From positions 1-12,925 of the forward strand of contig JAEYUH010000097.1 in assembly GCA_023432725.1 (NCBI GenBank): a DNA stretch of 12,925 nucleotides, in the 5' to 3' direction. The number at the start of each line of letters is the position of its first letter. Within the stretch, counting starts at the first letter, position 1. Origin of the DNA: Actinomycetes bacterium (lineage in GTDB: Bacteria; Actinomycetota; Actinomycetes; Propionibacteriales; Propionibacteriaceae). This document shows positions 1 through 12,925 of the stretch, piece by piece. Both the position numbers and the translations under genes were made by a program. The notes under the pieces are model-generated. The model was not told where the DNA came from. It was given only the letters and a program-made list of their open reading frames with translations, and ran no database searches.

Positions 1-438
1 GTCGGAGTGGCCGTGGTAGCAGCCGGCGAACTTCACCACCAGGTCGCGGCCGGTGGCGCCGCGGGCCAGCCGGACCGCCGTCATGCAGGCCTCGGTGCCG
101 GTGGAGACCAGGCGCACCCGTTCGGCCAGCGGCACCCGGGCCGTGATGGCTTCGGCGAGCTCGGCCTCGGCGAGGGTGGGCGCTCCGAACGACAGGCCGC
201 GCGCGGCCGCCGTCTGCACGGCGGAGACCACCCCGGGGTGGGCGTGGCCCAGCAGTGCCGGCCCCCATGAGCCGACCAGGTCGACGTACTGGCGGCCGGC
301 GACGTCGTACAGGAACGGCCCCGCTGCGCGCTGGACGAAGACGGGAGTGCCGCCCACCGAGCCGAAGGCACGAACCGGCGAGGAGACCCCACCCGGCATC
401 ACCCGGCGGGCCCGGTCGAAGGCGTCGGCGTTGGTCAT
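1..438 (-). CDS. hemL: Glutamate-1-semialdehyde 2,1-aminomutase, N-terminal part (cut by window edge)
   Basis: PLP-dependent cytoplasmic enzyme that isomerises glutamate-1-semialdehyde to 5-aminolevulinate, the second step of the C5 route begun by HemA in this operon. The 146 visible residues begin [20 protein letters not shown] and include the family's early [11 protein letters not shown] block (residues 15-25), the [15 protein letters not shown] stretch (54-68), and the STGTEA segment (112-117) typical of the PLP phosphate-binding region of class III aminotransferases. The frame then runs into [11 protein letters not shown] (136-146) and leaves the window. The PLP lysine lies in the missing part. 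The ATG at 436-438 shares ATGA with the hemB stop, so the two genes are translationally coupled. Identity is firm. HemL and ordinary class III aminotransferases are related, but the N-terminal [11 protein letters not shown] block and the heme context favour HemL. Confidence 0.95.
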
Positions 439-1415
439 CGCAGCCAGTCGACGAGGTCGAGCGCGGCATAGGTGAGCACCACGTCGGCACCGGCGCGCAC
501 GATCGCAGTGACAGCCTCGGTGAACGCGGCCCGCCGGTCGATCCAGCCCCGCTCGGCGGCGGCGGCGATCATCGCGTACTCGCCGGAGACCTGATAGGCG
601 GCGACCGGAACCTGCGCGGCGGCGGCGACGTCGGCCAGCACGTCGAGGTAGTGGCTCGCCGGCTTCACCATCAGGATGTCGGCACCCTCGGCCTGGTCGA
701 GCGCGGCCTCCAGGCGGCCCTCCCTGCGGTTGGCCGGGTCCTGCTGGTAGCTGCGGCGGTCGCCGTCCAGGGAGGATCCGACAGCCTCGCGGAACGGGCC
801 GTAGAACGCCGAGGCGTACTTGGCGGCGTAGCCGAGGATGCCCACCTCCTGGTGGCCGGCGGCGTCCAGCCCGGCCCGGATCGCGCCGACCTGGCCGTCC
901 ATCATCCCGGAGGGGGCGACGAAGTGGGCCCCGGCCGCCGCCTGGGAGACCGCCTGCCGCACGTAGAGGTCGACGGTGGCGTCGTTGTCCACCCGTCCGT
1001 CGGCGTCCAGCACGCCGCAGTGCCCGTGGTCGGTGAACTCGTCGAGGCAGGTGTCGGCCATCACCACGAGGGAGTCCCCGACCTCGGCGCGGGTGGCGGC
1101 GACCGCCCGGTTGAGGATGCCGTCGGCGGCGTAGCCCGCCGAGCCGGTCGCGTCCTTATCGGCGGGGGCGGGGACGCCGAACAGCATCAGCCCGCCGATC
1201 CCGGCGCCGGCGGCGCGGGCGGCCTCGGCCCTCACCGAGTCGAGGGTGTGCTGGACGACCCCCGGTAGCGAGCTGATCGGACGGGGCTCGCCGATCCCGT
1301 CCGCGACGAACACCGGCAGCACCAGTTGGGAAGCGTGGACGCGGGTCTCGGCCACCAGCCGCCGGATCGCGGGGGTTGCCCTGAGCCGGCGGGGACGGCG
1401 GGCGAGGTCGGCCAT
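435..1415 (-). CDS. hemB: Delta-aminolevulinic acid dehydratase (porphobilinogen synthase)
   Basis: Condenses two 5-aminolevulinate molecules to porphobilinogen in the cytoplasm. The protein has 326 residues, normal for the family. The two Schiff-base lysines are visible as K199 in [17 protein letters not shown] and K251 in [10 protein letters not shown]. The metal-site segment reads [14 protein letters not shown] (121-134): C123 and C133 are present, but the middle cysteine of the zinc-type triad found in E. coli is D125, a form I associate with actinobacteria. An in-frame extension reaches 1502, but the ATG at 1415 is preferred because GAAGGAG lies 5 nt before it (1421-1427) and family homology begins just after it. 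It follows cpfC after a 20-nt gap, the only gap in this operon, and its stop overlaps the hemL start (ATGA). Confidence 0.96.
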
Positions 1416-1420
1416 CGGTA

Positions 1421-1427
1421 CTCCTTC
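1421..1427 (-). promoter_or_regulatory. Strong ribosome binding site of hemB
   Basis: GAAGGAG on the minus strand, 5 nt before the hemB ATG. It sits in the only real gap of the heme operon (20 nt between the cpfC stop and hemB) and decides the hemB start against the longer in-frame reading. hemB, and hemL coupled to it, may thus be translated independently of the upstream genes. Confidence 0.8.
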
Positions 1428-1435
1428 GGTGGGTC

Positions 1436-2509
1436 TCAGGCGATCGGGGAGCGGGCCACCGCCGGCACGACCGGCGCCGGACGGCGGGGATTGGCGCAGC
1501 ACCCGCCGAAGCAGTAGTCACCCTCCGCGGCGACCGGCGAGCCGGTCCGCAGCTCGGCGGCGATCCGGCCGGCGAGGTCCGTGACGAAGCCGGGAGCGGT
1601 GCCCACCGTCGGCGTGCGCACCAGCCGCAGGCCCAGGTCGGCGGCGGTCTGCCTCGCCTGGGTGTCGAGGTCCCAGATCACCTCCATGTGGTCGGAGATG
1701 AACCCGATCGGGACCAGCACCACGTCCCGCACCCCGGCCGTCGCCAGCTCGGCGAGGAAGTCGTTCACGTCAGGTTCCAGCCACGGCACCGACGGCGGTC
1801 CGCTGCGGGACTGGAACACCAGGCCCCAGCCCGGACGGGTGCCGGTGGCGGTCGCGATCCGCTCCGCCACCCGGTCGGCCACCCAGCGGTGCTGGCCGAG
1901 GTACCGGCCACCGCCCGGGCCGGCGGCGGCCGCCATGGTGTCGGGGATCGAGTGGGTGGTGAACACCAGGCGGCTGGTGGGCGCCGTGAGGTCCAGGTCG
2001 TCCGGCAGGGCGGCGAGCAGCAGGTCGGCGATCGTCCCGGCGAACCCCGGGAGGTCGAAGAACGGCGGCAGCTTCACCACGTCGAGGTCGAGCCCGGTCG
2101 CCTCCAGCGCCAGGCCGACATCCTCGCGGTACTGCCGGCAGCTGGAGTACCCGGAGTAGGCAGACGTCGCCACGGCCAGCAGCCGCCGCCGGCCCCGGGC
2201 TGCGAGGTCGGCGAGCACATCGGGGATGAACGGCGGGCTGTTGCGGTTCGCCAGCGCCACCTCGACGGTCACGCCGGCCTCGGCCAGCGCGGCGGCCAGC
2301 GCCTCCCGCAGCGCCCGGTTCTGGGCGTTGATCGGGCTCACCCCGCCGAGGGTGAAGTAGTGCTGGCCGACCTCGACCAGCCGCTCGGGCGGGATGCCGC
2401 GGCCGGCGGTCACCCGCTCGAGGAAGGGGACTACCTCCTCCATCGCCTCCGGCCCGCCGAAGCCGAGCAGCAGGACGGCGTCGTAGGCCAGCTCGCCGCC
2501 CGGGTTCAC
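1436..2509 (-). CDS. hemH: Ferrochelatase, coproporphyrin type, with likely [2Fe-2S] cysteines
   Basis: Inserts Fe2+ into a porphyrin, here most likely coproporphyrin III (name cpfC), because the operon also carries ChdC. The 357-residue protein starts VNPGGELAYDAVLLLGFGGP. Visible family landmarks are H186 in TTHSIPD, the catalytic histidine, and E276 in ISDHMEVIWDLD, the conserved acidic partner, plus the VFQSRSGPP strand (231-239). C124 (YSSCRQYRED) together with C333, C337 and C338 near the end (DYCFGGCCANP) gives four cysteines in the one-central, three-terminal pattern of actinobacterial ferrochelatases that bind a [2Fe-2S] cluster; cluster binding is inference. The frame is open upstream to 2989, but that part only shadows chdC. 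The GTG at 2507-2509 shares GTGA with the chdC stop and fits the family N-terminus. Confidence 0.95.
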   Translation of the reverse strand: MNPGGELAYDAVLLLGFGGPEAMEEVVPFLERVTAGRGIPPERLVEVGQHYFTLGGVSPINAQNRALREALAAALAEAGVTVEVALANRNSPPFIPDVLADLAARGRRRLLAVATSAYSGYSSCRQYREDVGLALEATGLDLDVVKLPPFFDLPGFAGTIADLLLAALPDDLDLTAPTSRLVFTTHSIPDTMAAAAGPGGGRYLGQHRWVADRVAERIATATGTRPGWGLVFQSRSGPPSVPWLEPDVNDFLAELATAGVRDVVLVPIGFISDHMEVIWDLDTQARQTAADLGLRLVRTPTVGTAPGFVTDLAGRIAAELRTGSPVAAEGDYCFGGCCANPRRPAPVVPAVARSPIA

Positions 2510-3180
2510 CGCAGCACCCGCGCCAGCTCGTCGGGGGCGATCCGGTGGCCGGTGAAGAACGGCACCTCGACCCGGACGTGCCGTCGCGCCCCGGTGGCGC
2601 GCAGGTGGCGCATCAGGTCGGTGAGGTCGACCAGGTCGTCGGCCTCGAGGGCCAGCAGCCATTCGTAGTCGCCCAGCGCGAACGCGGCCACGGTGTTGCT
2701 CAGCACCTGCGGGAAGTTGCGGCCCAGCCGGCCGTGCTCGCCCAGCAGGGCGCGGCGCTCGTCCTCGGGCAGCAGGTACCACTCGTACGAGCGGACGAAG
2801 GGGTAGACGGTCAGCCAGCGCAGCGGCTCGGCGCCGCGCAGGAAGGCGGGCGCGTGGTCGCGGCTGAACTCGGCCTGGCGGTGGACGCCGAACCCGGACC
2901 AGACGAGCTCGACGGCGCCGCCGAGCGCCTCGTGCTCGAAGCGGCGGATCGCCTCCTGCAGGTCGGACGCCGAGTCGCCGTGGAGCCACACCAGCAGGTC
3001 GGCGGTCGCCGGCATCCCCTTCACGTCGTAGAAGCCGCGGACGGTGACCCCGGCGCCGGCCAGGTCGGCGACCAGTTCGCCGGCGAGCGAGCCGGTGTCG
3101 ACCGGGACGGGGGAGCGGCGGGCGAAGACCGCGTAGGCGGTGTAGCTGGTCTGGCTGTCCGGGGCGGCTGCGGCGGTCAT
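2506..3180 (-). CDS. chdC: Coproheme decarboxylase (HemQ), actinobacterial type
   Basis: Last enzyme of the coproporphyrin-dependent pathway: uses H2O2 to remove two propionate carboxyls from coproheme, giving heme b. It is a cytoplasmic, normally pentameric, ferredoxin-like-fold protein of the chlorite dismutase superfamily. At 224 residues it fits the shorter actinobacterial clade. The catalytic tyrosine is Y126 in YPFVRSYEWY. H149 in LLGEHGRLGR lies 23 residues later, the spacing expected between catalytic Tyr and proximal His in actinobacterial enzymes. H109 in RDHAPAF lies 17 residues before Y126, where that clade has its distal histidine. These matches use residue spacings I remember for the Corynebacterium enzyme. 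FALGDYEW (167-174) is also typical. The ATG at 3178-3180 overlaps the cgoX stop as ATGA, and its own stop overlaps the cpfC start as GTGA. Confidence 0.96.
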   Translation of the reverse strand: MTAAAAPDSQTSYTAYAVFARRSPVPVDTGSLAGELVADLAGAGVTVRGFYDVKGMPATADLLVWLHGDSASDLQEAIRRFEHEALGGAVELVWSGFGVHRQAEFSRDHAPAFLRGAEPLRWLTVYPFVRSYEWYLLPEDERRALLGEHGRLGRNFPQVLSNTVAAFALGDYEWLLALEADDLVDLTDLMRHLRATGARRHVRVEVPFFTGHRIAPDELARVLR

Positions 3181-4583
3181 GGTCCGACCCTAGCGGGGAG
3201 CTGGGCGAGCGCGAGACCGGCCTGGCGCCGTCCGTCGACGACGCAGTCCGGGACGCCGACGCCGCGCAGGCTGGCGCCGGCGATCCGCCAGGCCGGCAGG
3301 TGCGCCAACCCCGCCTCGGCCTGGGCGACCCGCGCCGGGTGGCCGACGGTGTACTTCGGCATCACCCCGGACCAGCGCGCCACCCGGGTGAGCACCGGGG
3401 GGCTGGTGGCACCGAGCACCGCGCCGACGTGGGCGGTAACCGCGGCGACGAGTTCGTCAGTCGGCGCGTCGGCGATCGCCCCGAGCCGCTGCGGCACGAA
3501 CGCCCTCACCAGGACGTGCCCCTCGGGGGCCCGGCCGGCCCATTTGGCCGAGCTGACCGTGCCGCCGCTGATCGGTGCCGGGTCGGCCTCCAGCCAGCCG
3601 TGCGTGGTGACCGGCGCGGCGAAGGCCTCGGTGCGATAGCCGAGCGAGACCACGTTCGACGTGGCGAGCGGGATGGCGGCCAGCGCGCGGGCGGCCTGGG
3701 GTGCGGCGTCGTGCAGCAGCTGTGCGGTGGCGGCCGGCCCGACCGCCAGCACTACCGCGTCCGCGGTGTGGCTGGTGCCGTCGGAGAGGGTGGCGCGGGC
3801 TCCGGCGCCGTGCTGGCGCAGGCTGGTCACGGCGGTGCCGGTGCGCAGTTCGGCGCCGGCCGCGGTGAGCTGTTCGACGACGGCGTCCACCAGGCTGCCC
3901 ATCCCGCGGCTCAGGCTGCGGAACGGCGAGCCGGGTCCCCGTCCGGCGGTCCGGGCCCGCCGGCCCTGGGCGAGCGCTGCCAGCATCAGGCTGCGGTGCG
4001 CCTCCTCGTCCGCGCGCAGCGACGGCAGGGTGGCGTCCAGGCTGAGCTCGTCCACCCCGGCGCCGTAGATGCCGCCCAGCATCGGGTCGGCGAACCGGCG
4101 AACGACTCCCTCACCCAGTCGGGCGCGCAGGAACTCGCCGATCGACACGTCCACCCCGGGGCGGAGCTGCCGGGGCAGCACGAGGTCGAGGCCGGCGCGC
4201 AGCTTGTGGGCCGGCGACAGGATGGCGGTGGTCGCGAACGGCCACAGCCGGTTCGGCAGCACCATCCCCATGCCGGCGGGCAGCGGACGCAACCGGCCGC
4301 CGACCCGCAGGAACACCGAGCGATCCCCGGTAGTGGCGACGATCTCGTGCCCGAGCCCCACTTCGCCGGCGAGCTGCGCGGCCGCCGGGCGGTAGCTGAC
4401 GAACGAGTCGGGCCCGTGCTCGATGAGGAAGCCGTCGACGCTCTCGGTGCGGAGCTTGCCGCCGAAGCTGTCGGACGCCTCGACCAGCAGCACCTCGGCC
4501 GGCGGTCGTCCCTCGGCCCCGCGGACCGCCTCCCAGGCGGCCGCCAGGCCGGCGATGCCGCCGCCGACGACCAGCAACCTCAC
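3177..4583 (-). CDS. hemG: Coproporphyrinogen III / protoporphyrinogen oxidase, HemY/HemG FAD type
   Basis: FAD-dependent oxidase that takes six electrons from a porphyrinogen using O2 and releases H2O2. With ChdC in the operon, the likely substrate is coproporphyrinogen III (name cgoX, formerly hemY), and its H2O2 could feed ChdC. The 468-residue protein opens with the dinucleotide-binding fold RLLVVGGGIAGLAAAWEAV, followed by LVEASDSFGGKLRTE (33-47) and GFLIEHGPDSF (51-61). Later landmarks are DPMLGGIYGAGVDELSL (166-182), WSGVMPKYTVGH (404-415) and a C-terminal FAD-contacting IAGASLRGVGVPDCV (434-448). The frame is open to 4676, but the GTG at 4581-4583 is chosen: it puts the FAD motif at residues 4-12 and shares GTGA with the stop of the radical SAM gene. 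It is unrelated to the flavodoxin-like HemG of E. coli. Confidence 0.94.
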   Translation of the reverse strand: MRLLVVGGGIAGLAAAWEAVRGAEGRPPAEVLLVEASDSFGGKLRTESVDGFLIEHGPDSFVSYRPAAAQLAGEVGLGHEIVATTGDRSVFLRVGGRLRPLPAGMGMVLPNRLWPFATTAILSPAHKLRAGLDLVLPRQLRPGVDVSIGEFLRARLGEGVVRRFADPMLGGIYGAGVDELSLDATLPSLRADEEAHRSLMLAALAQGRRARTAGRGPGSPFRSLSRGMGSLVDAVVEQLTAAGAELRTGTAVTSLRQHGAGARATLSDGTSHTADAVVLAVGPAATAQLLHDAAPQAARALAAIPLATSNVVSLGYRTEAFAAPVTTHGWLEADPAPISGGTVSSAKWAGRAPEGHVLVRAFVPQRLGAIADAPTDELVAAVTAHVGAVLGATSPPVLTRVARWSGVMPKYTVGHPARVAQAEAGLAHLPAWRIAGASLRGVGVPDCVVDGRRQAGLALAQLPARVGP

Positions 4584-5704
4584 AGGGCGGCCCTGGGCTG
4601 GTAGGGGCACAGCGGGTCGGACTCCAGCGGGTCGCCGGTCCAGGCGTAGGCCCGCGCCCGCGATCCGCCGCACCACTGGCGGAACTCGCAGCGGCCGCAG
4701 CGGCCCTTGAAGCCGTCCGGCTCCCGCAGTGCCCGCATCGTGGGGTGGTGCCGGTAGAGGTCGACCAGCGAGCCGTCCTTCACGTTGCCGACGGTCAGCG
4801 GCAGGAACCCCGACGGCGTCACGTCGCCGAGGTTCGACACGAAGACGATGCCGTTGCCGTCGCGGATGCCGAAGGCCCGCGCCATCGGGTGGGCCTCCAC
4901 CTCCTCCTTGCTCTTGCCCGCCCGCAGCAGCGCGGCCGCGCCCAGCCGGCGGTACTGCATCGCCTCGGTGGTCTTCACCCGGAAGGCGGCGTCGCGGCCC
5001 ACCCGCTGGGCCCAGGCGAGGGTGCGTTCGGCTTCGCCAGGGCTGAGCTCGACGAGCTCACTGCCGCGGCCGATGGAGATCAGGAAGAACAGGCTCCACT
5101 GCTGCAGGGTGTGCCGGGACAGCAGGTCGAAGACCGCCGGCAGGTCCGCCGCGGTGGTCGCGGTGACGAGGGTGTTCACCTGCACCGGCAGTCCCGCCTC
5201 GGCCGCGGTGTCGAGGGCGGCGAGGGTGGCCTGGAAGGTACCGGGGACCATCCGGACGCCGTCGTGGCGAGCCGGCGTCGACCCGTCGAGGGAGAGCGAG
5301 ATCGCCTGGATTCCGATCTGCCTCATCCAGAAGATGCGCTCCCGGGTGAGCAGCGGGGTGACCGCCGGTGCGAGCGAGACCCCGATCCCGCGGTCGCTGG
5401 CCGCCGCGACGAGTTCCGCCAGGTCCGGACGGCGCAGCGGGTCGCCGCCGGTCATCACCACGTGCGGCAGGGCCTCGCCCGGGCCGGCGAAACCGCAGAT
5501 GTCGTCGAGCAGGGCAAGGGCCTCGGCGGTGCTGAGCTCCCCCGGGGCGGCGTCCGGAATGGCCGTCGCGCGACAGTGCCGGCACGCCAGCCCGCAGGCG
5601 TTCGTGAGCTCCCAGTAGACGATCATCGGTGCCCGGTCGTAGGCCCAGCCGACCGGCTTCACCGACCCGATGCCGTGAGGGTGGCGGGCGACGGGGTGGG
5701 TCAT
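4580..5704 (-). CDS. Radical SAM/SPASM-type protein, NirJ/AhbD-like, in heme operon
   Basis: The 374-residue protein has the radical SAM cluster motif C37-x3-C41-x2-C44 (TNACGLACRHCRA), the MTGGDPL segment (84-90) of the SAM-binding region, and a C-terminal auxiliary-cluster motif C336-x2-C339-x5-C345-x20-C366 in CGRCEFRQWCGGSRARAY and TGDPLESDPLC. The CGGSRARAY...TGD...DPLC layout resembles NirJ, AhbC and AhbD, which modify heme d1 or siroheme-derived hemes. AhbD removes the same two coproheme carboxyls as ChdC, but without oxygen. The gene lies between hemE and cgoX, overlapping both (TGATG and GTGA), so a tetrapyrrole role is likely. The ATG at 5702-5704 is preferred because GAGGAG lies 5 nt upstream; a GTG three bases earlier is possible. 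The exact reaction cannot be read from sequence. Other options are an oxygen-independent partner of CgoX or an uncharacterised radical SAM maturase. Confidence 0.85.
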   Translation of the reverse strand: MTHPVARHPHGIGSVKPVGWAYDRAPMIVYWELTNACGLACRHCRATAIPDAAPGELSTAEALALLDDICGFAGPGEALPHVVMTGGDPLRRPDLAELVAAASDRGIGVSLAPAVTPLLTRERIFWMRQIGIQAISLSLDGSTPARHDGVRMVPGTFQATLAALDTAAEAGLPVQVNTLVTATTAADLPAVFDLLSRHTLQQWSLFFLISIGRGSELVELSPGEAERTLAWAQRVGRDAAFRVKTTEAMQYRRLGAAALLRAGKSKEEVEAHPMARAFGIRDGNGIVFVSNLGDVTPSGFLPLTVGNVKDGSLVDLYRHHPTMRALREPDGFKGRCGRCEFRQWCGGSRARAYAWTGDPLESDPLCPYQPRAAL

Positions 5705-6744
5705 CACTTCTCCTCGATCGGCAGGGAGTGGACCAGTTCCACCAGCCTGGTGAGCGTGTCCGGGTCGGTGTCCGGCGGCACCCCGTGGCCGAGGTTGAAG
5801 ACGTGCCCGGGCGCCGCAGCGCCGCGCCGGACGACGTCTTGGGCGGCCTGCGCCAGCACCGGCCAGTCGGCCTTCAACAGCGTGGGGTCGAGGTTGCCCT
5901 GCACTGGCACCGTGCCGCCGAGCAGCCGGGCGGCGGCGTCCAGCGGCAGGTCGGCGGCGACGCCGATCACGTCCGCGCCGGCGTCCAGCATGGCGGGGAG
6001 CAGGTGGGCGGTGGCGGTGCCGAAGTGCACCCGCGGCACCTTCAGGTCAGCGACCGCCGCGAGCACCGCTGCCGAGTGCGGCTGGACGGCGGCGGTGTAC
6101 TCGGGCAACGAGAGCCGTCCGGCCCAGGAGTCGAAGAGCTGCACAGCCCGGGCGCCCGCGGCGACCTGGCAGCGCAGGAAGGCGGCTGACAACCCGGCCA
6201 CCCAGGCCAGCAGCCGGTGCCAGGCGTCGGGGTCGGCGGCGAGCAGCGCCCGGGTGGCCGGCAGGTCCCGGTTGGGCCTTCCCTCCACCAGGTAGGACGC
6301 CACCGTGAACGGCGCCCCGGCGAAGCCGATCAGCGGCACCGGGCCGAGTTCGGCGACGCTGAGTGCGACGGCGTCGGCGATCGGCTGGAGGGCCGCCGGG
6401 TCGAGGTCGGGCAGCCGCTCGACGTCAGCGGCGCTGCGCACCGGGTCGGCGATCACCGGACCCACCCCGGCGACGATCTCCACCGCCACCCCGGCAAGCT
6501 TCAGCGGCACCACGATGTCGGAGAACAGGATGGCGGCGTCGACGTCGTGGCGGCGGACCGGCTGGCAGGTGATCTCCGCGGCCAGTTCCGGGGTCAGGCA
6601 GGCCTCCAGCATCGCGGTGCCTTCCCGGGCGGCACGGTACTCAGGCAGCGACCTGCCGGCCTGCCGCATGAACCACACCGGACGGCGGGACACCGCGGCG
6701 CCCTGGTAGGCCGCGAGCAGCGGCGGCAGGTCGACAGCGCTCAC
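5704..6744 (-). CDS. hemE: Uroporphyrinogen decarboxylase
   Basis: Removes the four acetate carboxyls of uroporphyrinogen III to give coproporphyrinogen III, the substrate of the downstream CgoX. It is a cofactor-free cytoplasmic TIM-barrel enzyme. The 346-residue protein shows the N-terminal signature [16 protein letters not shown] (22-37) with R27 and R31, the catalytic aspartate D76 in [18 protein letters not shown] (140-147), Y151 in ASYLVEG, FDSWAG (204-209), GNLDP (283-287) and H320 in [14 protein letters not shown]. These cover the expected active-site arginines, aspartate, tyrosine and histidine. It starts at the GTG 6742-6744, which shares GTGA with the hemA stop; no better in-frame start lies nearby. 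Its own stop shares TGATG with the radical SAM gene. Confidence 0.97.
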
Positions 6745-7997
6745 GCCTGCGCCCCGACGTCGATGCCGAACAGCGTCTGGAGCGCCTGGGAGTAGTCGGC
6801 GAGCTCGCCGGACCGGGCGAGTTCTGCGGCCCGCAGCGACGGGGTGTGCAGCAGAGAGTTCGACACCCGGCGCAGCGAACGCGCCACCGCGGCAGCGGTC
6901 TCCGGGTCGTAGCGCCGGTTGGCGCCCTCGATCTCGCCCTCGATGAACTGGCTGACATAGGAGCGGATCGCCGTCACAGCCGGCGCCGCTGCCCGTCCGG
7001 ACTCAAGGTGCAGGTAGGTCTCCACGCCGCGGCTGACCAGGTCGCGGGCGGCCAGCACGGCGGTCGCCCGCTCCGCGGGGGCGTGGGCGCCGATCTCGTC
7101 GAGGTCGATCAGGTCGATCTTCAGCGATCCGGAAGCAGCAGGATCGACGTCCCCGGTGAGCGAGAGGTCGAGGACGGGCAGCAGCGCGGCTTCGGCTCCG
7201 CGGGCGGCGCCGAGCAGGCCGGCGGCGAGCAGCGGACCGGTCCGGCGCTCAGCGCCGCTGCAGGTGACCAGCAGGGCGGAGGCGGCGAGCGCGGCGGGCA
7301 GCGCGGACTCGGTGACCGGGTCCACCGGACGGCTCGCCGCGAACTGCTCGGCGCGTCCGGTGGGGGAGTAGACCGACAGCTCGGTGCAGCCCAGCCGGAG
7401 CAGCGCGGCCACCACGACCCGGGCGTAGCTGCCGGTGCCGACCACCAGCGCACGGCGGCCGGCGAGCGGGAAGTGCCGCTGCTCCACGAGGGAGAGCCCG
7501 ACCTCGGCCAGCGATCGGCCGGCGGCGCCCAGGTCGGTCTGGGAACTCACCGCCTTGCCGGTGGTCAGCGCGGCGTTGAACAGCCGGTGGAGGGCAGGTC
7601 CGGCCTGGGCGCTGCTCCTGGCGATCGCCTCCTTGACCTGGCCGAGGATCTCGTCCTCGCCGACCACCATCGAGTCCAGCCCGCTGGCCACCTCCATCAG
7701 GTGCTGGACGGCTGCCTGGCCGGCGTACACCTCAAACTGGCCGACCAGGCCGTGGTGCTCCTCAGGCAGCCCGGCCCGCAGCGCAGCCAGCACGCCGTCC
7801 ACCCCGGGGTGGAAGGAGGGCGATTCGAAGTAGATCTCGAACCGGTTGCAGGTGCTCAGCACGACCCGTCCGGTGATCGCGGGCGTCCGATCCAGCGCGG
7901 CGGTCACCAGGTCACAGGCCCGGCTCAGCCGGGCAAGGTCGTCCAGCGCGACGAGGTGGTGACTGATGCCGACGGCAGAAACTGGCACGGCCGCCAT
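6741..7997 (-). CDS. hemA: Glutamyl-tRNA reductase
   Basis: NADPH-dependent reduction of glutamyl-tRNA(Glu) to glutamate-1-semialdehyde, the committed and usually regulated step of the C5 pathway; HemL takes the product. The 418-residue protein has the catalytic thiol C50 in [13 protein letters not shown], the family signature [20 protein letters not shown] (105-124), the nucleotide-binding GTGSYA (187-192), where many homologues have GAG-M, and a C-terminal helical dimerisation region (about 310-405). It is the first gene of the heme operon. The ATG at 7995-7997 is used. Its Shine-Dalgarno is weak (only AGG directly before it), and a GTG nine bases downstream is an alternative that would place AGGATGG ahead of it. 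A strong hairpin ends 12 nt upstream, and lacI stops 38 nt upstream on the same strand. Confidence 0.95.
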
Positions 7998-8009: not shown

Positions 8010-8036
8010 GGGCGGGCCGGTTCTCCGCGCCCGCCC
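8010..8036 (-). terminator. GC-rich hairpin between lacI and hemA (terminator or leader structure)
   Basis: GGGCGGGC at 8010-8017 pairs perfectly with GCCCGCCC at 8029-8036. Inside, CGG at 8018-8020 pairs with CCG at 8025-8027 around a TTCT loop, with a single bulged base at 8028, giving an 11-bp stem. It begins on the last base of the lacI stop codon and ends 12 nt before the hemA ATG. No U-tract follows on the minus strand, so it could be a U-less actinobacterial terminator for lacI, or a structure in the hemA leader if transcription enters from lacI. Confidence 0.55.
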
Positions 8037-9067
8037 TACCGGCGGGGGATGGTGGACCCCCGGATCACCAGCCGCACCGGGTGGTACTGCGTGCCGGCCG
8101 GGCGGGGCTGGTCGGTGTCCATCACCTGGAACAGCGAGCGCGCCGCCTCGCGTCCCAGCTGCTGGAGGTTCGGGTCGATGCTGGTGAGTTCAGGACGCGA
8201 ATTGGTGGTCAGCACCTCCCAGTTGTCGTAGCCGATCACCGCCACATCGCCCGGCACGTCGCGACCGAGGTCGCGCAGGGTGTCCAGCACGCCGCGGGCG
8301 ATCTGGTCCGAACCGCAGGCGATCGCATCCACCTCGGGGTGCTGGGCCAGCAGCATCGCCGCGGCGTCGCGTCCCCATCCCTCCGACCACTCCGAGAACA
8401 TCACGTCGCCGTGGAGTTCCAGGCCGGCGGCCGCCAGCGCCTGGTGGACCCCCTTGACGCGGTCCTGCGCAGCGGCGTAGGCGGGGTCGCCGGTGATGTG
8501 GGCGATCCGGGTCCGGCCGCAGGCGATCAGGTGCTCGACGGCCATCCGTCCGCCGGCCTCGTTGTCGGGGGTGAGCGAGAGGTCAGTCGGGTCGTCGGAG
8601 GGTGCGTAGGCGTACACCACCGGGACCGGGACGCCCTGGCCGAGGGACGGCCGGGGGTCGGTCTGCCGGCCGACCACGATGATCCCGTCCACCCGGCGGT
8701 GCAGCAGCGCCTTGAGGTGGTGCTGTTCGCGGATGTGGTCGCCCCGCGCGTCGCACAGGAAGACGTTGACCTGACCGGCCCCGAAGGCGTCCTCGGCCCC
8801 CATCAGGATCGGGATCACGAACCGTCCCTCGAGGTCACTGGTGAGCAGCCCGACGGTGCCGGTCCGCCCGGCGAGCAGGCTCCGCGCCAGTTGGTTGGGG
8901 GTGAAGCCGATCTCGTCGGCGGCGTCGAGGACGCGGCGACGCGTGGTCTCGGCGACGTCCCCGCGGCCGTTGATCGCCTTGGAGGCCGTCGCGAGCGAGA
9001 CGCCGGCCAGCCGGGCGACCTCCGACAGCGTGGCCGGGTAGCCCGGTGCTGGGTTTCCTGGCCTCAC
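8036..9067 (-). CDS. LacI-family transcriptional repressor, probably of the divergent sugar operon
   Basis: DNA-binding regulator with an N-terminal helix-turn-helix (TLSEVARLAGVSLATASKAI, residues 13-32), a hinge region (about 55-66) and a periplasmic-binding-protein-like sensor domain from about residue 69 (TGTVGLLTSDLEGRFVIPIL). It ends with the usual VIRGSTIPRR tail. At 343 residues the length is normal. Two GTG starts are possible. The one at 9065-9067 is preferred because GAGGAG lies 6 nt ahead, whereas the GTG at 9073 overlaps that Shine-Dalgarno. It faces the substrate-binding protein gene across a 197-nt control region, the usual layout for a local repressor, so the effector is probably the imported sugar or its product. 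It also lies directly upstream of hemA on the same strand, so read-through into the heme operon is possible. Confidence 0.93.
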   Translation of the reverse strand: MRPGNPAPGYPATLSEVARLAGVSLATASKAINGRGDVAETTRRRVLDAADEIGFTPNQLARSLLAGRTGTVGLLTSDLEGRFVIPILMGAEDAFGAGQVNVFLCDARGDHIREQHHLKALLHRRVDGIIVVGRQTDPRPSLGQGVPVPVVYAYAPSDDPTDLSLTPDNEAGGRMAVEHLIACGRTRIAHITGDPAYAAAQDRVKGVHQALAAAGLELHGDVMFSEWSEGWGRDAAAMLLAQHPEVDAIACGSDQIARGVLDTLRDLGRDVPGDVAVIGYDNWEVLTTNSRPELTSIDPNLQQLGREAARSLFQVMDTDQPRPAGTQYHPVRLVIRGSTIPRR

Positions 9068-9131
9068 GCCCACCTCCTCGTGCTCGCACGGTACCGCGAA
9101 AGGTCCGGAAAGGGTATCCGGCCCTGGCTCC

Positions 9132-9160
9132 TTGACGTCGACGCTACCCCTAGGTACGCT
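9132..9160 (+). promoter_or_regulatory. Predicted sigma70-type promoter of the sugar operon
   Basis: TTGACG at 9132-9137 and TACGCT at 9155-9160 are separated by exactly 17 nt. The -35 matches TTGACA at five of six positions, and the -10 keeps the TA...T pattern tolerated in high-GC actinobacteria. Transcription would start near 9166-9168, leaving a leader of about 98 nt before the ATG at 9265. Prediction by eye only. Confidence 0.55.
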
Positions 9161-9163
9161 CCC

Positions 9164-9177
9164 CGAAAAGGGTTTCG
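9164..9177. promoter_or_regulatory. Candidate LacI-family operator
   Basis: CGAAA (9164-9168) and TTTCG (9173-9177) form an inverted repeat around AGGG, centred just after the predicted transcription start. A protein bound here would block initiation, as expected of a repressor operator. Additional half-sites of the same word lie at 9097-9101 (CGAAA) and 9184-9187 (TTCG within CTTTCGG). Most LacI-family operators have a tighter, CG-centred symmetry, so the 4-nt spacer is a weakness. Confidence 0.4.
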
Positions 9178-9222
9178 ATGACTTTCGGCCAGCGCGCCTC
9201 GTCGGAGCCCCGAATGGCGACA

Positions 9223-9239
9223 GGGCCCCGCTGGGGCCC
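9223..9239 (+). promoter_or_regulatory. Leader hairpin ahead of the substrate-binding protein gene
   Basis: GGGCCCC (9223-9229) and GGGGCCC (9233-9239) form a 7-bp all-GC stem with a GCT triloop. It lies in the predicted 5' leader, 14 nt before the AAGGAG Shine-Dalgarno at 9254-9259, and leaves that site unpaired. There is no U-tract. It could stabilise the mRNA or attenuate transcription; its function is not shown by sequence. Confidence 0.45.
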
Positions 9240-9264
9240 GCTCAAGGACGAGCAAGGAGCTCAC

Positions 9265-10566
9265 ATGGGTAGTAACTGGAACCGGCGGGCCCGTCAGCTC
9301 GTCGGGATCGCGGTCGCCGGCGCGGTTGCGCTGAGCCTCACCGCCTGCGGGGGAACCGCCCCCACCCAGCCCTCAGCGGCGCCCTCGGTCGGCGCCGAGG
9401 GCACCGACGACGGCGCCAGCCTCACGCTGTGGACGCGCGCGCCGCTGGAGAAGCAGGCCAAGGCGCTGGTCGAGGCGTACAACGCGTCGCACAAGAACCA
9501 GGTCGAACTCACCGTCGTCCCCAATGACGACTACGTGGCGAAGGTCGGCGCGGCGGCGGGCGCCAACGGCCTGCCGGACCTGTTCGCCGCCGACATCGTC
9601 TACGTGCCCAACTGGATCCGCCAGGGACTCTTCCAGGACCTGACAGCCAACATCGGCGCGATGCCGTTCAAGGACTCGATCAACGCCGGCCACGTCAGCG
9701 CCGGTACTGCCGAAGGCAAGGAGTACGTGCTGCCGTTCGTGCTCGACCTCTCCATGCTGTTCTGGAACAAGGACCTGTTCCGTGAGGCCGGCCTCGACCC
9801 GGAGAAGGCCCCGGCCACGATGGCCGAGTACGCCGACGCGGCGAAGAAGATCCAGGCCCTGAACAAGCCGGGCGTCTACGGCACCGCCGCCGGCCTGAAC
9901 TGCGGCGGCTGCCTGGTGTTCACCTGGTTCCCCAGCATCTGGGCCTCCGGGGACCAGGTGATGAACCCCGAGGGCACTGAGTCGCTGCTGAACGGCGCCA
10001 ACGCCAAGCAGGTGTACGACATCTGGCGCGACCTGTGGAGTGCCGGCGCGGTGCTGCCGTCCTCTCGCGACGAGGCCGGTCCGACCTGGACCGCAGGGTT
10101 CACCGAGGGCAAGGTCGGGCTGATGTTCTACCCGGCCACCCTGATGTCGTCGACGCCGTTCGACGCCGGCGTGGCGGGCATCCCCGGGGTGAACGGCGGC
10201 GCCTCCACCTTCGTCGGCGGTGACGGCATCGGGATCTCGAAGGACTCCACCCAGGCCGCGCAGGCCTGGAACTTCCTGAACTGGATGATGTCGGAGGACG
10301 CCCAGGTCGGGGTGCTGGCCAAGGGCAACGACGCGGTCTCCCGCGGCGACCTCGCCAACAACGAGTTCGCCGCCAAGGATCCGCGGATGGTCACCATCAA
10401 CGAGGTGGCGGCCAAGGGCGGAACCCCGGTCGCGCTCAACTTCCAGCAGGCCTTCAACGCCGTCGGCAGCCCGTGGGTCACCATGGTCCGCAACCAGGTG
10501 CTGAACAACGCCGGGAGCGTCGACGCCGACAACGAACAGATCACGGCGATCCTGGGCCAGGGTTAG
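9265..10566 (+). CDS. Sugar ABC transporter substrate-binding lipoprotein (CUT1 family)
   Basis: Extracellular, membrane-anchored family 1 solute-binding protein that delivers a carbohydrate to the two downstream permeases. The 433-residue precursor has a lipoprotein signal: basic NRRARQ, a hydrophobic core (about 11-24), and the lipobox LTAC with lipidated C28. A Gly/Pro/Ala/Ser-rich linker follows to about residue 46, and the folded domain starts at SLTLWTRAPLEKQ. C213 and C216 (NCGGC) could form a disulfide. PSIWASGDQ and FTEGKVGLMFYPA (279-291) are typical of sugar-binding members. The ATG at 9265 is chosen over the in-frame ATG at 9178: AAGGAG lies 5 nt before it, the signal peptide begins at once, and 9178 overlaps the candidate operator. 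The ligand is not readable from sequence; the GH127 gene downstream suggests an arabinofuranose-containing oligosaccharide. Confidence 0.93.
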   Translation: MGSNWNRRARQLVGIAVAGAVALSLTACGGTAPTQPSAAPSVGAEGTDDGASLTLWTRAPLEKQAKALVEAYNASHKNQVELTVVPNDDYVAKVGAAAGANGLPDLFAADIVYVPNWIRQGLFQDLTANIGAMPFKDSINAGHVSAGTAEGKEYVLPFVLDLSMLFWNKDLFREAGLDPEKAPATMAEYADAAKKIQALNKPGVYGTAAGLNCGGCLVFTWFPSIWASGDQVMNPEGTESLLNGANAKQVYDIWRDLWSAGAVLPSSRDEAGPTWTAGFTEGKVGLMFYPATLMSSTPFDAGVAGIPGVNGGASTFVGGDGIGISKDSTQAAQAWNFLNWMMSEDAQVGVLAKGNDAVSRGDLANNEFAAKDPRMVTINEVAAKGGTPVALNFQQAFNAVGSPWVTMVRNQVLNNAGSVDADNEQITAILGQG

Positions 10567-10572
10567 CCGACA

Positions 10573-10605
10573 GTTGCCGGGTGCCGTGGCACGGCACCCG
10601 GCAAC
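10573..10605 (+). promoter_or_regulatory. 15-bp perfect hairpin between binding-protein and permease genes
   Basis: GTTGCCGGGTGCCG (10573-10586) is the exact reverse complement of CGGCACCCGGCAAC (10592-10605). An inner T-A pair extends the stem to 15 bp around a GGC loop. It lies 6 nt after the binding-protein stop, with no T-run following, and the permease gene starts 35 nt later. This is the position where sugar-transport operons often carry a structure that protects upstream mRNA or causes partial termination, so that the binding protein exceeds the permeases. The role is inferred; the structure is seen directly. Confidence 0.75.
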
Positions 10606-10640
10606 CCGTTGTCCCGGGTCGCTGAAAGGAAAGTCCCCAG

Positions 10641-11567
10641 ATGTCACTCGCACCCGCCCCGGCCCTTCCGGGCCGGCGCGCCGGCCGGCCCGGTGCCGCG
10701 CGCGCCCGACGCCGGCTGGCCTGGGAGGGCGCCGCCTTCGCGCTGCCGAACGCCGCCTTCCTGGTCCTGCTGTTCGTGCTCCCGCTCGTGCTGGTGCTCC
10801 AGATGTCGGGCTCGAAATGGCCGCTGCTGGGCGGAAACCAGGGCTGGAACTTCCCCGCCAACTTCGGCCGGGCGATCAGCCACCGGCTGTTCACCGACTC
10901 GATAGTGTTCACGGTCAAGTACACGCTGCTCGCCACCGCGCTGCTGATCCTCATCGGGCTCGGTCTCGGCCTGCTGGTCCAGGAGGCCAGCCGGTGGAAG
11001 GGCTTCCTGCGGACGGCGTTCCTGCTGCCGAGCGCGCTCGGGCTGGCATCGGCCTCCCTGCTGTTCTACGTCCTGTACTCACCGATCGCGGGCCCGTTCG
11101 CGCCGCTCATGGAGCGGTGGGGCGCATCCTTCCTCGGCACGCCGACCGCCGCGCTGCTCTCCACCACGTTCCTGATCGTGTGGCGGTACGCCGGGTTCTA
11201 CATGCTGCTGATGCTCGTCGGCCTGCAGCGGATCCCGGTGGACGTCTACGAGTCGGCCAGCCTCGACGGCGCCTCACGGTGGCAGACCTTCCGGTTCATC
11301 ACCCTCCCGTTGCTGAGGTCGACCCTCGCCCTCACCACGATGATGTGCGTCACCGGGTCCCTGCTCGCGTTCGAGCAGTTCTACATCCTCACCAAGGGCG
11401 GTCCGGACAACTCCACGATCACCATCGTGCAGTTGATCTACAGCGTCGCATTCCAGGGCCAGAACGACCTCGGGGTCGCCGGTGCACTGTCGGTGATCGT
11501 GCTGGTCGCGCTGGTCATCGTCAACATCGCCCAGATCCGCGCCTTCGCCCAGGACAACGCCTCATGA
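10641..11567 (+). CDS. Sugar ABC transporter permease, MalF-like (CUT1)
   Basis: Integral membrane subunit, 308 residues, with an Arg-rich cytoplasmic N-terminus (11-25) and about six hydrophobic segments, starting near 31-54, 90-113, 125-146, 170-194, 225-245 and 278-297. The cytoplasmic EAA loop that docks the ATPase reads VYESASLDGASRWQTFRFI (202-220), with the conserved glycine G210. LTKGGPDNST (250-259) is a common MalF-type periplasmic turn. The ATG at 10641 has AAAGGA 10 nt upstream. Its stop overlaps the next permease gene as ATGA. No ATP-binding subunit gene follows, so a shared MsiK-type ATPase encoded elsewhere is likely, as is common for actinobacterial CUT1 systems. Confidence 0.94.
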   Translation: MSLAPAPALPGRRAGRPGAARARRRLAWEGAAFALPNAAFLVLLFVLPLVLVLQMSGSKWPLLGGNQGWNFPANFGRAISHRLFTDSIVFTVKYTLLATALLILIGLGLGLLVQEASRWKGFLRTAFLLPSALGLASASLLFYVLYSPIAGPFAPLMERWGASFLGTPTAALLSTTFLIVWRYAGFYMLLMLVGLQRIPVDVYESASLDGASRWQTFRFITLPLLRSTLALTTMMCVTGSLLAFEQFYILTKGGPDNSTITIVQLIYSVAFQGQNDLGVAGALSVIVLVALVIVNIAQIRAFAQDNAS

Positions 11568-12439
11568 CCGCCGCCACCCTCAGCCGGGACGCATTGCCCG
11601 CCCGCCGGGAGGCCTCGCCGCTGGTCTCCGCGCTCTCCCGCACGCCGTTCTTCGTCCTCACCGGCGGCCTGGCGATCCTCTTCCTCTACCCGCTGGGATG
11701 GACGGCGGTGGCGTCGGTCTCGCCGCGGGCTGGCACCGCGCAGACCGATGGCTTCGGCTGGAACAACTACCTGACGCTCGCCGACTACCAGGCCGGCATC
11801 TGGCAGTACCTGTTCAACTCGGCGGTGGTCTCGCTGCTGACCGTCGTCCTCACCCTCGCCGTGTCGACGCTGTCGGGGTACGCGTTCGCGCGGTTCAGCT
11901 TCCCCGGCAAGGACGCCCTGTTCCTCGGCACACTCGCGATCCTGATGGTCCCGTACGCGACGGTCCTGATTCCGCTGTACGTGCTGCTCAACCGGGTGGG
12001 ACTGCAGAACTCGCTGGTGGGCGTCGCGCTGGTGCTGACGATGTTCCAGTTGCCGTTCTCGGTCTTCATGATGCGGATCTCCTTCGAGGCGATCCCGCGC
12101 GAGCTGGACGAAGCGGCACGGGTGGACGGCGCGTCCTCGACGGGCGTGCTGTGGCGGGTCCTGCTGCCGGCCGTCCAGCCGGGGCTGATCACCGTCGGGC
12201 TGTTCGCCTTCCTGGCCGCGTGGAACGACTTCATGGCGCCGCTGATCCTGATCAACGACACCAACCGGATGACCCTGCCGCTCGCGATCGCCAACCTGCG
12301 GGTGCAGGTTCAGGGGGTTGTCGACTACGGGGCCACCGAAGCGGGCGTGGTGATCCTCGCCCTGCCGTGCTGCATCCTCTTCCTCCTCCTCCAACGTCAC
12401 TACGTGCGCGGCTTCATGTCCGGCGCACTGAAGGGCTGA
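11564..12439 (+). CDS. Sugar ABC transporter permease, MalG-like (CUT1)
   Basis: Second membrane subunit of the transporter, 291 residues. Hydrophobic segments lie near 28-50, 86-107, 118-141, 148-170, 207-229 and 258-276. The EAA loop is IPRELDEAARVDGAS (177-191), with E183-A-A and G189 in place, followed by LWRVLLPAVQPGL; this is the strongest family match in the transporter. TAVASVSP near 47-54 and GYAFARFSFPGKD (105-117) are typical MalG-type segments. The ATG at 11564 shares ATGA with the first permease stop. A longer reading in this frame back to 10574 is an artefact over the first permease. The gene ends 2 nt before the GH127 start. Confidence 0.94.
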   Translation: MTAATLSRDALPARREASPLVSALSRTPFFVLTGGLAILFLYPLGWTAVASVSPRAGTAQTDGFGWNNYLTLADYQAGIWQYLFNSAVVSLLTVVLTLAVSTLSGYAFARFSFPGKDALFLGTLAILMVPYATVLIPLYVLLNRVGLQNSLVGVALVLTMFQLPFSVFMMRISFEAIPRELDEAARVDGASSTGVLWRVLLPAVQPGLITVGLFAFLAAWNDFMAPLILINDTNRMTLPLAIANLRVQVQGVVDYGATEAGVVILALPCCILFLLLQRHYVRGFMSGALKG

Positions 12440-12441
12440 CC

Positions 12442-12925
12442 ATGCTCACTTCCACGCGTCCTGCCGTCGCACCGGTCGTCCCCACCACCGGCAGGCTGCG
12501 CCCGCTCGGCCTGGCCGAGGTGCGGATCACCGACGGGTTCTGGGCGCAGCGGCAACACACCAACGCCCGCGCCACCCTGCCCCACATCGCCCACTGGCTG
12601 GAGCGGGAGGGCTGGATCGGCAACTTCGACCTCGCTGCCGCCGGCACCCTGCCGGCCGGCCGGCGGGGCCGGGAGTTCTCCGACTCAGAGATCTACAAGT
12701 TCCTCGAGGGCGCCGCCTGGGAACTCGGACGCGAGCCCGACCCCGGGCTGGAGGCGCGGTTCCGCGACTTCGTCCGACGGGTCGCCGCCGCCCAGGCACC
12801 GGACGGCTACCTCAGCACGGCGTTCGGCAGGCCGGGCCAGCCGGAGCGCTGGTCGGACCTGGCGTGGGGCCACGAGCTGTACTGCCTCGGACACCTCTTC
12901 CAGGCCGCTGTGGCGCGGGCCCGGA
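12442..12925 (+). CDS. GH127 (DUF1680) glycoside hydrolase, N-terminal part (cut by window edge)
   Basis: The first 161 residues match the N-terminal block of the GH127 family, whose characterised members include retaining beta-L-arabinofuranosidases using a cysteine nucleophile. Landmarks are ITDGFWAQRQHTN (29-41), ATLPHIAHWLEREGWIGNF (44-62), FSDSEIYKFLEGAAWELG (79-96), AAQAPDGYLSTAF (116-128) and WSDLAWGHELYCLGHLFQAA (137-156). The N-terminus MLTSTRPAVAPVVPTTG has no signal peptide, so the enzyme is probably cytoplasmic and acts on imported oligosaccharide. The catalytic cysteine and zinc ligands of the family lie beyond the window and could not be checked. The ATG at 12442 is 2 nt after the permease stop, with AAGGG at 12431-12435 as ribosome site. 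Related families (GH146 and other DUF1680 relatives) remain possible, and the exact linkage cleaved is unknown. Confidence 0.87.
   Translation, partial: MLTSTRPAVAPVVPTTGRLRPLGLAEVRITDGFWAQRQHTNARATLPHIAHWLEREGWIGNFDLAAAGTLPAGRRGREFSDSEIYKFLEGAAWELGREPDPGLEARFRDFVRRVAAAQAPDGYLSTAFGRPGQPERWSDLAWGHELYCLGHLFQAAVARAR

Follow-up and report, generated by a model that had tools for sequence, protein, structure and literature searches.

We analyzed a 12,925-nucleotide stretch of DNA (hereafter, the window) from contig JAEYUH010000097.1 of an actinomycete of the family Propionibacteriaceae, in which a heme biosynthesis operon on the minus strand contains, in order, hemA, hemE, a radical S-adenosylmethionine (SAM) gene, cgoX, chdC, cpfC, hemB and hemL. 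Gene families were called by NCBIfam profile scores, except for hemL, which was called by eye. An earlier reading of the window (hereafter, the original prediction) had described the radical SAM gene as AhbD/NirJ-like and as one of two alternative last steps of heme synthesis in one operon. The coordinates it gave (4580..5704) proved correct, and the strand, which it left unstated, is minus; the overlaps it noted with both hemE and cgoX were also found. The hemE stop codon (TGA, 5706-5704) and the ATG of the radical SAM gene (5704-5702) overlap by 1 nucleotide (nt), and the stop codon of the radical SAM gene (TGA, 4582-4580) overlaps the probable GTG start of cgoX (4583) by 4 nt. Because of these overlaps on both sides, there is no space between the gene and its neighbors for a small peptide gene, and the precursor peptide gene that the original prediction had set against its own reading has no room directly beside it. 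Translation from the ATG gives 374 amino acids (aa) and from an alternative GTG at 5707 gives 375; residue numbers given with the name P0002 (the window protein) count from this GTG and are one higher than the motif and cluster numbers, which count from the ATG. Named organisms among the 120 closest proteins listed, all at least 68% identical, were mostly Propionibacteriaceae, including Propionicimonas, Micropruina and Brooklawnia.

Profile searches placed the radical SAM protein in TIGR04053 (428.8 bits, cut-off 395), a family named without an assigned function, with AhbD (TIGR04545) as the second-best profile at 272.1 bits. The label AhbD/NirJ-like therefore held in that AhbD, rather than a peptide maturase, is the nearest characterized family; it did not hold as a family assignment, the protein being a TIGR04053 member that misses the AhbD cut-off. 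AhbC-adjacent AhbDs of Chloroflexota likewise fell below that cut-off, the best of them scoring 490.5 bits. In a wider alignment that included AhbD rows, all 83 members (83/83) had matches of 1e-20 or better to TIGR04053 as well as to AhbD. Some relatives are labeled "AdoMet-dependent heme synthase" by one source; automatic annotation therefore already links them to AhbD.

The motifs listed in the original prediction were all present where it had placed them: CX3CX2C at residues 37-44, CX2CX5CX20C at 336-366, CGGSRARAY and TGDPLESDPLC. All seven cysteines (three of the radical SAM motif and four auxiliary) were invariant in 83 of 83 TIGR04053 rows, and those of these rows that were included in alignment A2 range from 39% to 85% identity to P0002, so the motif cysteines are not there by chance. 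The window protein carries CX3CX2C together with a C-terminal CX2CX5CX20-38C, a combination that one survey gives as common to all 39 of its AhbDs (PMC10452713). It does not carry the full eight-cysteine SPASM motif, described there for methanogens, sulfate reducers and one other archaeon (PMC10452713). The extra SPASM cysteines of M. barkeri AhbD (C223, C256, C274 and C324) correspond to E248, I281, S299 and S349 in P0002, with the spacing of 33, 18 and 50 retained. This is the pattern of non-methanogen archaeal AhbDs, in which Glu and Ser are reported to be conserved at the places of C223, C274 and C324, whereas the place of C256 shows no conservation (PMC10452713). At nine further positions of P0002 (E33, R46, Q176, E227, T247, R254, F289, G300 and P371), conservation within TIGR04053 was 97% or higher, all 12 AhbD-side rows shared the residue and at least nine of ten AhbC-like rows carried another one; these group counts omit L177, which is neither AhbD, AhbC-like nor TIGR04053.

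A radical SAM tree of 106 rows was built by a quick search, with Shimodaira-Hasegawa-like approximate likelihood ratio test (SH-aLRT) values as the only support, and its AhbD-like and AhbC-like rows were drawn from a search of 201 genomes belonging to the same phylum as a Chloroflexota metagenome-assembled genome (MAG), in which no protein exceeded the AhbD cut-off (best 488 bits). TIGR04053 formed a single clade of 83 rows (SH-aLRT 100) nested within AhbD-like proteins; going outward, it was joined by three AhbD-like rows (95), an eight-row AhbD clade (80) and L161 (93). An AhbC-like gene adjoins six of the eight rows of that AhbD clade in the fetched DNA, and the AhbC-like rows formed a separate outgroup clade. 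The first fork inside the TIGR04053 clade lacks resolution. Of the phylogeny that the original prediction had proposed, with AhbC, AhbD, NirJ and peptide maturases, this tree covers the AhbD-like and AhbC-like part, and in that part it shows nesting in AhbD and separation from AhbC.

An AhbC/NirJ1-like gene lies directly beside four TIGR04053-side members, namely L172 and, within one of the early lines, L171, L174 and L178. Two of these four neighbors were scored, one at 516.5 bits for NirJ1 and 469.8 for AhbC, the other at 531.3 for AhbC and 489.8 for NirJ1, all below the cut-offs of 650; a review lists AhbC also under the name NirJ1, and AhbD also under the name NirJ2 (PMC10991733). The wider region of L172 (L200) also encodes HemL, HemB, a uroporphyrinogen methyltransferase/HemD fusion, HemA and a protein with two NirDL-like siroheme decarboxylase halves. 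Judged by its genes, L200 is a siroheme-type heme operon in which a TIGR04053-side protein appears in AhbD's place, L172 being a long row assigned to that side by the tree. L171 scores 479 bits for TIGR04053, and none of the other heme-gene profiles matched in its wider region (L198). The siroheme-type evidence comes from four loci, and many pathway genes are present at one of these. Coproheme is the intermediate common to siroheme-type and coproporphyrin-type pathways (PMC7242693), and because the TIGR04053 side occurs in both settings, coproheme is favored as the substrate and coproporphyrinogen III disfavored.

In the best 80 of 309 loci from named genomes, cgoX stood immediately beside the radical SAM gene in 70, and at least one other heme gene was present in the fetched DNA of 73. 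The seven loci lacking such a gene were L021, L026, L027, L028, L064, L077 and L079, two of which (L027 and L079) are short contigs. The fetched DNA of 31 of the 80 loci held cgoX and cpfC without chdC. In eight chdC-free operons the cgoX and cpfC profile matches end 23-101 nt apart, and in one of these, from Propionibacterium cyclohexanicum (L025), chdC lies elsewhere in the genome. The operon of L011 is split, with TIGR04053-cgoX pointing away from hemE-chdC-cpfC-hemB-hemL, so that the two proposed last steps are naturally separated. In L001, L002, L004 and others, a HemL-like aminotransferase (35-40% identity) at about 2-3 kb in the locus precedes the heme operon on the opposite strand.

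Position does not link all TIGR04053 genes to heme. Two TIGR04053 copies occur in several genomes, and in one of these purine genes adjoin a copy. Among 20 neighbor proteins from TIGR04053 loci with no heme gene, or with cgoX only, none was a heme or peptide-maturation protein; they belonged to purine or other housekeeping genes or to no family. The TIGR04053 copies of L120, L121, L123 and L126 have no heme genes nearby and their genomes hold a second copy; SAICAR synthetase and a glutamine amidotransferase adjoin the copy in L121. L129, L130, L133 and L142 group in a TIGR04053 clade of their own (453-463 bits), and their 19-kb regions hold no heme gene; the neighbors in L130 are AICARFT/IMPCHase and a DUF6350 protein.

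Whole-genome searches covered 79 genomes from the 80 loci, L049 being omitted as a contig of the same assembly as L008. ChdC was found in 37 of 50 and 24 of 29 TIGR04053-bearing genomes, leaving 18 of 79 without it. These 18 include an isolate, Propionibacterium acidifaciens DSM 21887 (L030). HemF was found in none of the 18 ChdC-negative genomes, and HemN exceeded its cut-off in none of 30 genomes examined (the 18 without ChdC plus 12 with it); 28 of the 30 gave HemN profile matches below the cut-off, which we take to be HemW-like. On the tree, 65 rows were scored for ChdC and 12 of these lacked it; its absence required at least seven changes, part of which may reflect incomplete MAGs.

A further sample, the only one covered by a genome-wide ferrochelatase search, consisted of 197 genomes from the family to which P. 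acidifaciens belongs. TIGR04053 exceeded its cut-off in 110, ChdC in 141 and ferrochelatase in 181 of the 197. The 181 ferrochelatase-positive genomes comprised 99 with both genes, 11 with TIGR04053 only, 41 with ChdC only and 30 with neither. TIGR04053 was thus present in 110 of 181 ferrochelatase-positive genomes versus 0 of 16 negative ones (p 9e-7, relatedness ignored). In one TIGR04053-only genome, G090, the gene lies on a 2.0-Mb contig of a genome of about 2.0 Mb. HemF was not found in four further TIGR04053-only genomes (G090, G102, G123 and G176). Taken at the level of gene content, some relatives seem to have only TIGR04053 for the last step of heme synthesis.

The cgoX genes divide into two lineages. 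A second cgoX directly beside chdC occurs in five genomes that have a TIGR04053-cgoX pair (G028, G030, G031, G034 and G037). Six others (G082, G104, G150, G158, G168 and G174) have one cgoX beside TIGR04053 and another clustered with HemE, CpfC and ChdC, with CpfC and ChdC lying together as in Cutibacterium acnes. Eight of these 11 second copies (those of G030, G034 and the six cluster genomes) fell below the TIGR00562 cut-off of 97.85 bits and were recognized by a custom profile and by position. In a CgoX tree of 87 rows (34 of 121 removed by thinning; quick search, SH-aLRT only), a branch (96) separated all 60 TIGR04053-adjacent rows from the six cluster rows and the full set of 11 rows beside ChdC alone; eight row pairs are the same gene fetched twice, so the 60 rows are 52 distinct genes. 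The window CgoX falls on the TIGR04053 side although its other neighbor is chdC. That side also holds seven rows that lie in a TIGR04053 operon region without being adjacent and, as exceptions, two rows from TIGR04053-negative genomes (G083 and G105). In L127, TIGR04053 adjoins ChdC with CgoX further off, and its CgoX forms a long branch within the ChdC side. The genomes of the two exceptional genes have no TIGR04053 above the cut-off, and the fetched DNA around these genes (L228 in G083 and L225 in G105) contains no other profiled heme gene.

In G150, G168 and G158 (L240, L241 and L236), the open frames that hold the ferrochelatase and ChdC matches agree in length (687-705 aa), as for the CpfC-ChdC fusion reported for C. 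acnes (PMC10427985).

Taking these results together, we consider it likely that the product of the window gene is an AhbD-type coproheme decarboxylase that needs no oxygen and acts in parallel to ChdC, a reading drawn from sequence, operon, family, tree and co-occurrence. Its [4Fe-4S] cluster on C37/C41/C44 would cleave SAM, as the motif suggests, and a single auxiliary cluster on C336/C339/C345/C366 would hand on the leftover electron. ChdC would work with H2O2 when oxygen is present and the TIGR04053 enzyme when it is not; the same CpfC would supply both last steps, the TIGR04053 enzyme also being fed by the CgoX of its co-traveling lineage. The AhbD-like interpretation of the original prediction is thus supported at the level of sequence, and its proposal of two alternative last steps in one operon gains comparative support from the gene-bearing genomes that lack ChdC and from the members beside an AhbC/NirJ1-like gene. 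Its aerobic branch of CgoX plus ChdC calls for an addition, as CgoX is not simply a member of that branch and the cgoX genes adjoining TIGR04053 are a lineage of their own.

Several observations weigh against this reading. The AhbD score of P0002 does not reach the TIGR04545 cut-off of 500. At the first of the extra-cysteine places the sampled AhbD rows have Asp (7/9) or Cys (2/9), and the other three places are Cys in 9 of 9. Most genomes with TIGR04053 keep ChdC (61/79, and 99/110 in the family sample), so that TIGR04053 is seldom the sole candidate, and 17 of the 18 ChdC-negative genomes are titled as MAGs and may be incomplete. The 30 ferrochelatase-positive genomes with neither gene (HemN above the cut-off in eight, HemF in none) weaken the arguments from absence, because some other route must exist in them. 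Among 40 wider loci (L111-L150) of one family, hand-picked from the matches, 24 had no other heme-gene profile match in 19 kb and 16 had such matches; some TIGR04053 paralogues may differ in function. The link to anaerobic life is indirect, NrdD being present in 22 of 110 TIGR04053-positive versus 4 of 87 negative genomes by hand count (1 of 41 ChdC-only, 3 of 30 with neither and 0 of 16 ferrochelatase-negative). Class II ribonucleotide reductases also function without oxygen, which makes NrdD a weak proxy. As a separate observation, 22 of the 30 genomes with neither gene have ferrochelatase, no ChdC, TIGR04053 or HemN above the cut-off and no HemF, and in 16 of these 22 the ferrochelatase match exceeds 300 bits.

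We weighed four other functions. An unlikely one is a HemN role, in which the enzyme would convert coproporphyrinogen III to protoporphyrinogen IX ahead of CgoX and so open a protoporphyrin route when oxygen is short. The position between hemE and cgoX, the adjacency to cgoX in 70 of 80 loci and the lack of HemN above the cut-off in 30 of 30 gene-bearing genomes examined would all suit such a role. However, TIGR04053 nests in AhbD, whose substrate is an iron porphyrin, and early-branching members stand beside AhbC/NirJ1-like genes, one of them in a siroheme-type operon that has no coproporphyrinogen III intermediate. The window operon also holds ChdC and ferrochelatase, and of the 44 families matched to P0002 the top 25, down to a score of 37.6 bits, do not include the HemN profile (TIGR00538, cut-off 324.95); HemN is absent from the tree rows. 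Action on another tetrapyrrole, as in heme d1-like chemistry or an AhbC-like deacetylation, is improbable. NirJ2, NirJ, AhbC and NirJ1 profiles do match P0002 at 133-169 bits (NirJ2 168.6; NirJ 158.7, cut-off 515.45; AhbC 145.3, cut-off 650), and the AhbC-like neighbors of some relatives score both as NirJ1 and as AhbC. By contrast, AhbC-like proteins form a separate outgroup, TIGR04053-side members stand beside an AhbC-like gene and do not replace it, and no nir genes were seen in the window.

The chance is slighter still that the protein is a peptide maturase of the mycofactocin, PQQ or sactipeptide type that lies in the operon by accident. Its predicted structure was confident (mean predicted local distance difference test score 92.6), the best PDB matches were SPASM/twitch radical SAM enzymes, and the closest solved folds were PqqE, SkfB and SuiB. 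This shared fold does not discriminate, since the listed matches (4 and 50) include no AhbD structure. The weak maturase profile matches (mycofactocin maturase 105.2 bits, PqqE 88) are far below the AhbD score of 272, and no precursor gene fits between the overlapping genes. Equally slim is the case for a HemW-like regulator or chaperone of heme synthesis without decarboxylase activity: it would fit the tight heme-operon linkage just as well, but CX3CX2C and the auxiliary cysteines are invariant in 83 of 83 members, and the gene is kept where ChdC is missing.

For the wider family, the balance of evidence tips slightly toward TIGR04053 and its own CgoX lineage acting together as a terminal module with which the coproporphyrin-dependent pathway can run without oxygen in Actinomycetota, Chloroflexota and others. 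The CgoX of the pair would use an electron acceptor other than oxygen, and genomes could hold both pairs, merge them or drop ChdC. We predict that TIGR04053-side CgoX functions anaerobically. The cgoX of S. coelicolor gave no anaerobic complementation, in a report that describes the terminal steps in Actinobacteria as needing further work (PMC6620371).

The coordinates of the operon genes are given in Table 1. The cpfC product also stayed below the cut-off of TIGR00109 (109.9 bits, cut-off 124.6). Upstream of hemA (window 8036-12925) lies a LacI-family regulator on the minus strand and, beyond it, a plus-strand sugar ATP-binding cassette transporter set with a binding protein (9178-10566) and a permease (10641-11567); by eye, another permease and the beginning of a glycosidase-like gene were also recognized.

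Table 1. Genes of the heme operon in the window, listed in operon order
Gene or product	Position	Strand	Remarks
hemA (glutamyl-tRNA reductase)	6741..7997	-	First gene of the operon; NF000750 329.6 bits, cut-off 289
hemE (uroporphyrinogen decarboxylase)	5704..6744	-	TIGR01464 358.3 bits, cut-off 302.95
TIGR04053 radical SAM/twitch protein	4580..5704	-	374 aa; proposed oxygen-independent coproheme decarboxylase, AhbD type
cgoX (HemY-type coproporphyrinogen III oxidase)	3177..4583	-	Probable GTG start; TIGR00562 225 bits, cut-off 97.85
chdC (hemQ; H2O2-dependent coproheme decarboxylase, actinobacterial type)	2506..3180	-	NF042928 (HemQ_actino) 302.3 bits, cut-off 235
cpfC (ferrochelatase)	1436..2515 (start approximate)	-	NF000689 375.1 bits, just below cut-off 408
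hemB (porphobilinogen synthase)	435..1502 (start approximate)	-	NF006762 455.2 bits, cut-off 297
hemL (glutamate-1-semialdehyde aminomutase)	1..438 (truncated by window end)	-	Read by eye from translation

Compared with known systems, the window protein resembles AhbD (TIGR04545) in its superfamily branch, its CX3CX2C plus CX2CX5CX20-38C motifs, its AhbD-side residues and the AhbC/NirJ1-like neighbors of some relatives; it differs in forming a clade of its own, in missing the AhbD cut-off and in the replacement of the four extra SPASM cysteines, a pattern shared with AhbD of non-methanogen archaea. Unlike AhbD of the siroheme pathway, its gene belongs to a coproporphyrin-dependent operon, and no AhbA, AhbB or AhbC was seen in the window. 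With ChdC (HemQ) it would share the reaction and does share the operon, although ChdC is an unrelated protein that uses H2O2. Like HemN, NirJ and AhbC, it is by our reading a radical SAM enzyme of tetrapyrrole synthesis, but these are different families by profile score and, for AhbC-like proteins, also by the tree. A precedent for a ChdC-type and an AhbD-type last step in one organism is Haloferax volcanii, in which the ChdC-like pitA is needed aerobically and ahbD only anaerobically, its deletion impairing only anaerobic growth (PMC5746218). Unlike the window, H. volcanii has no uroD, cgoX or cpfC but the siroheme route instead, and the available text of that paper describes no joint operon (PMC5746218).

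Reviews state in general terms that AhbD can replace ChdC (PMC7242693 and PMC12670364), and PMC10548856, citing Dailey 2015, mentions ahbD colocalized with hemY, hemH and hemQ; PMC10965808 calls the anaerobic enzyme unknown. We found TIGR04053 by name in no paper, and among the listed papers on AhbD, ChdC or heme pathways no title or opening of an abstract names the family, key heme-pathway papers lying outside this search. The AhbD-type heme synthase is a known kind of enzyme; what marks the present variant is its family, TIGR04053, with a predicted single auxiliary cluster, a coproporphyrin-type operon and a CgoX partner of its own. The data supply a concrete protein family, a natural experiment in the form of genomes without ChdC, and a matching CgoX lineage, and the question of the oxygen-independent last step is now directly testable in cultivable bacteria and in vitro. 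If our reading is true, an aerobic pair (CgoX-ChdC) and an anaerobic pair (CgoX-TIGR04053) can coexist in a genome or merge, as in the window.

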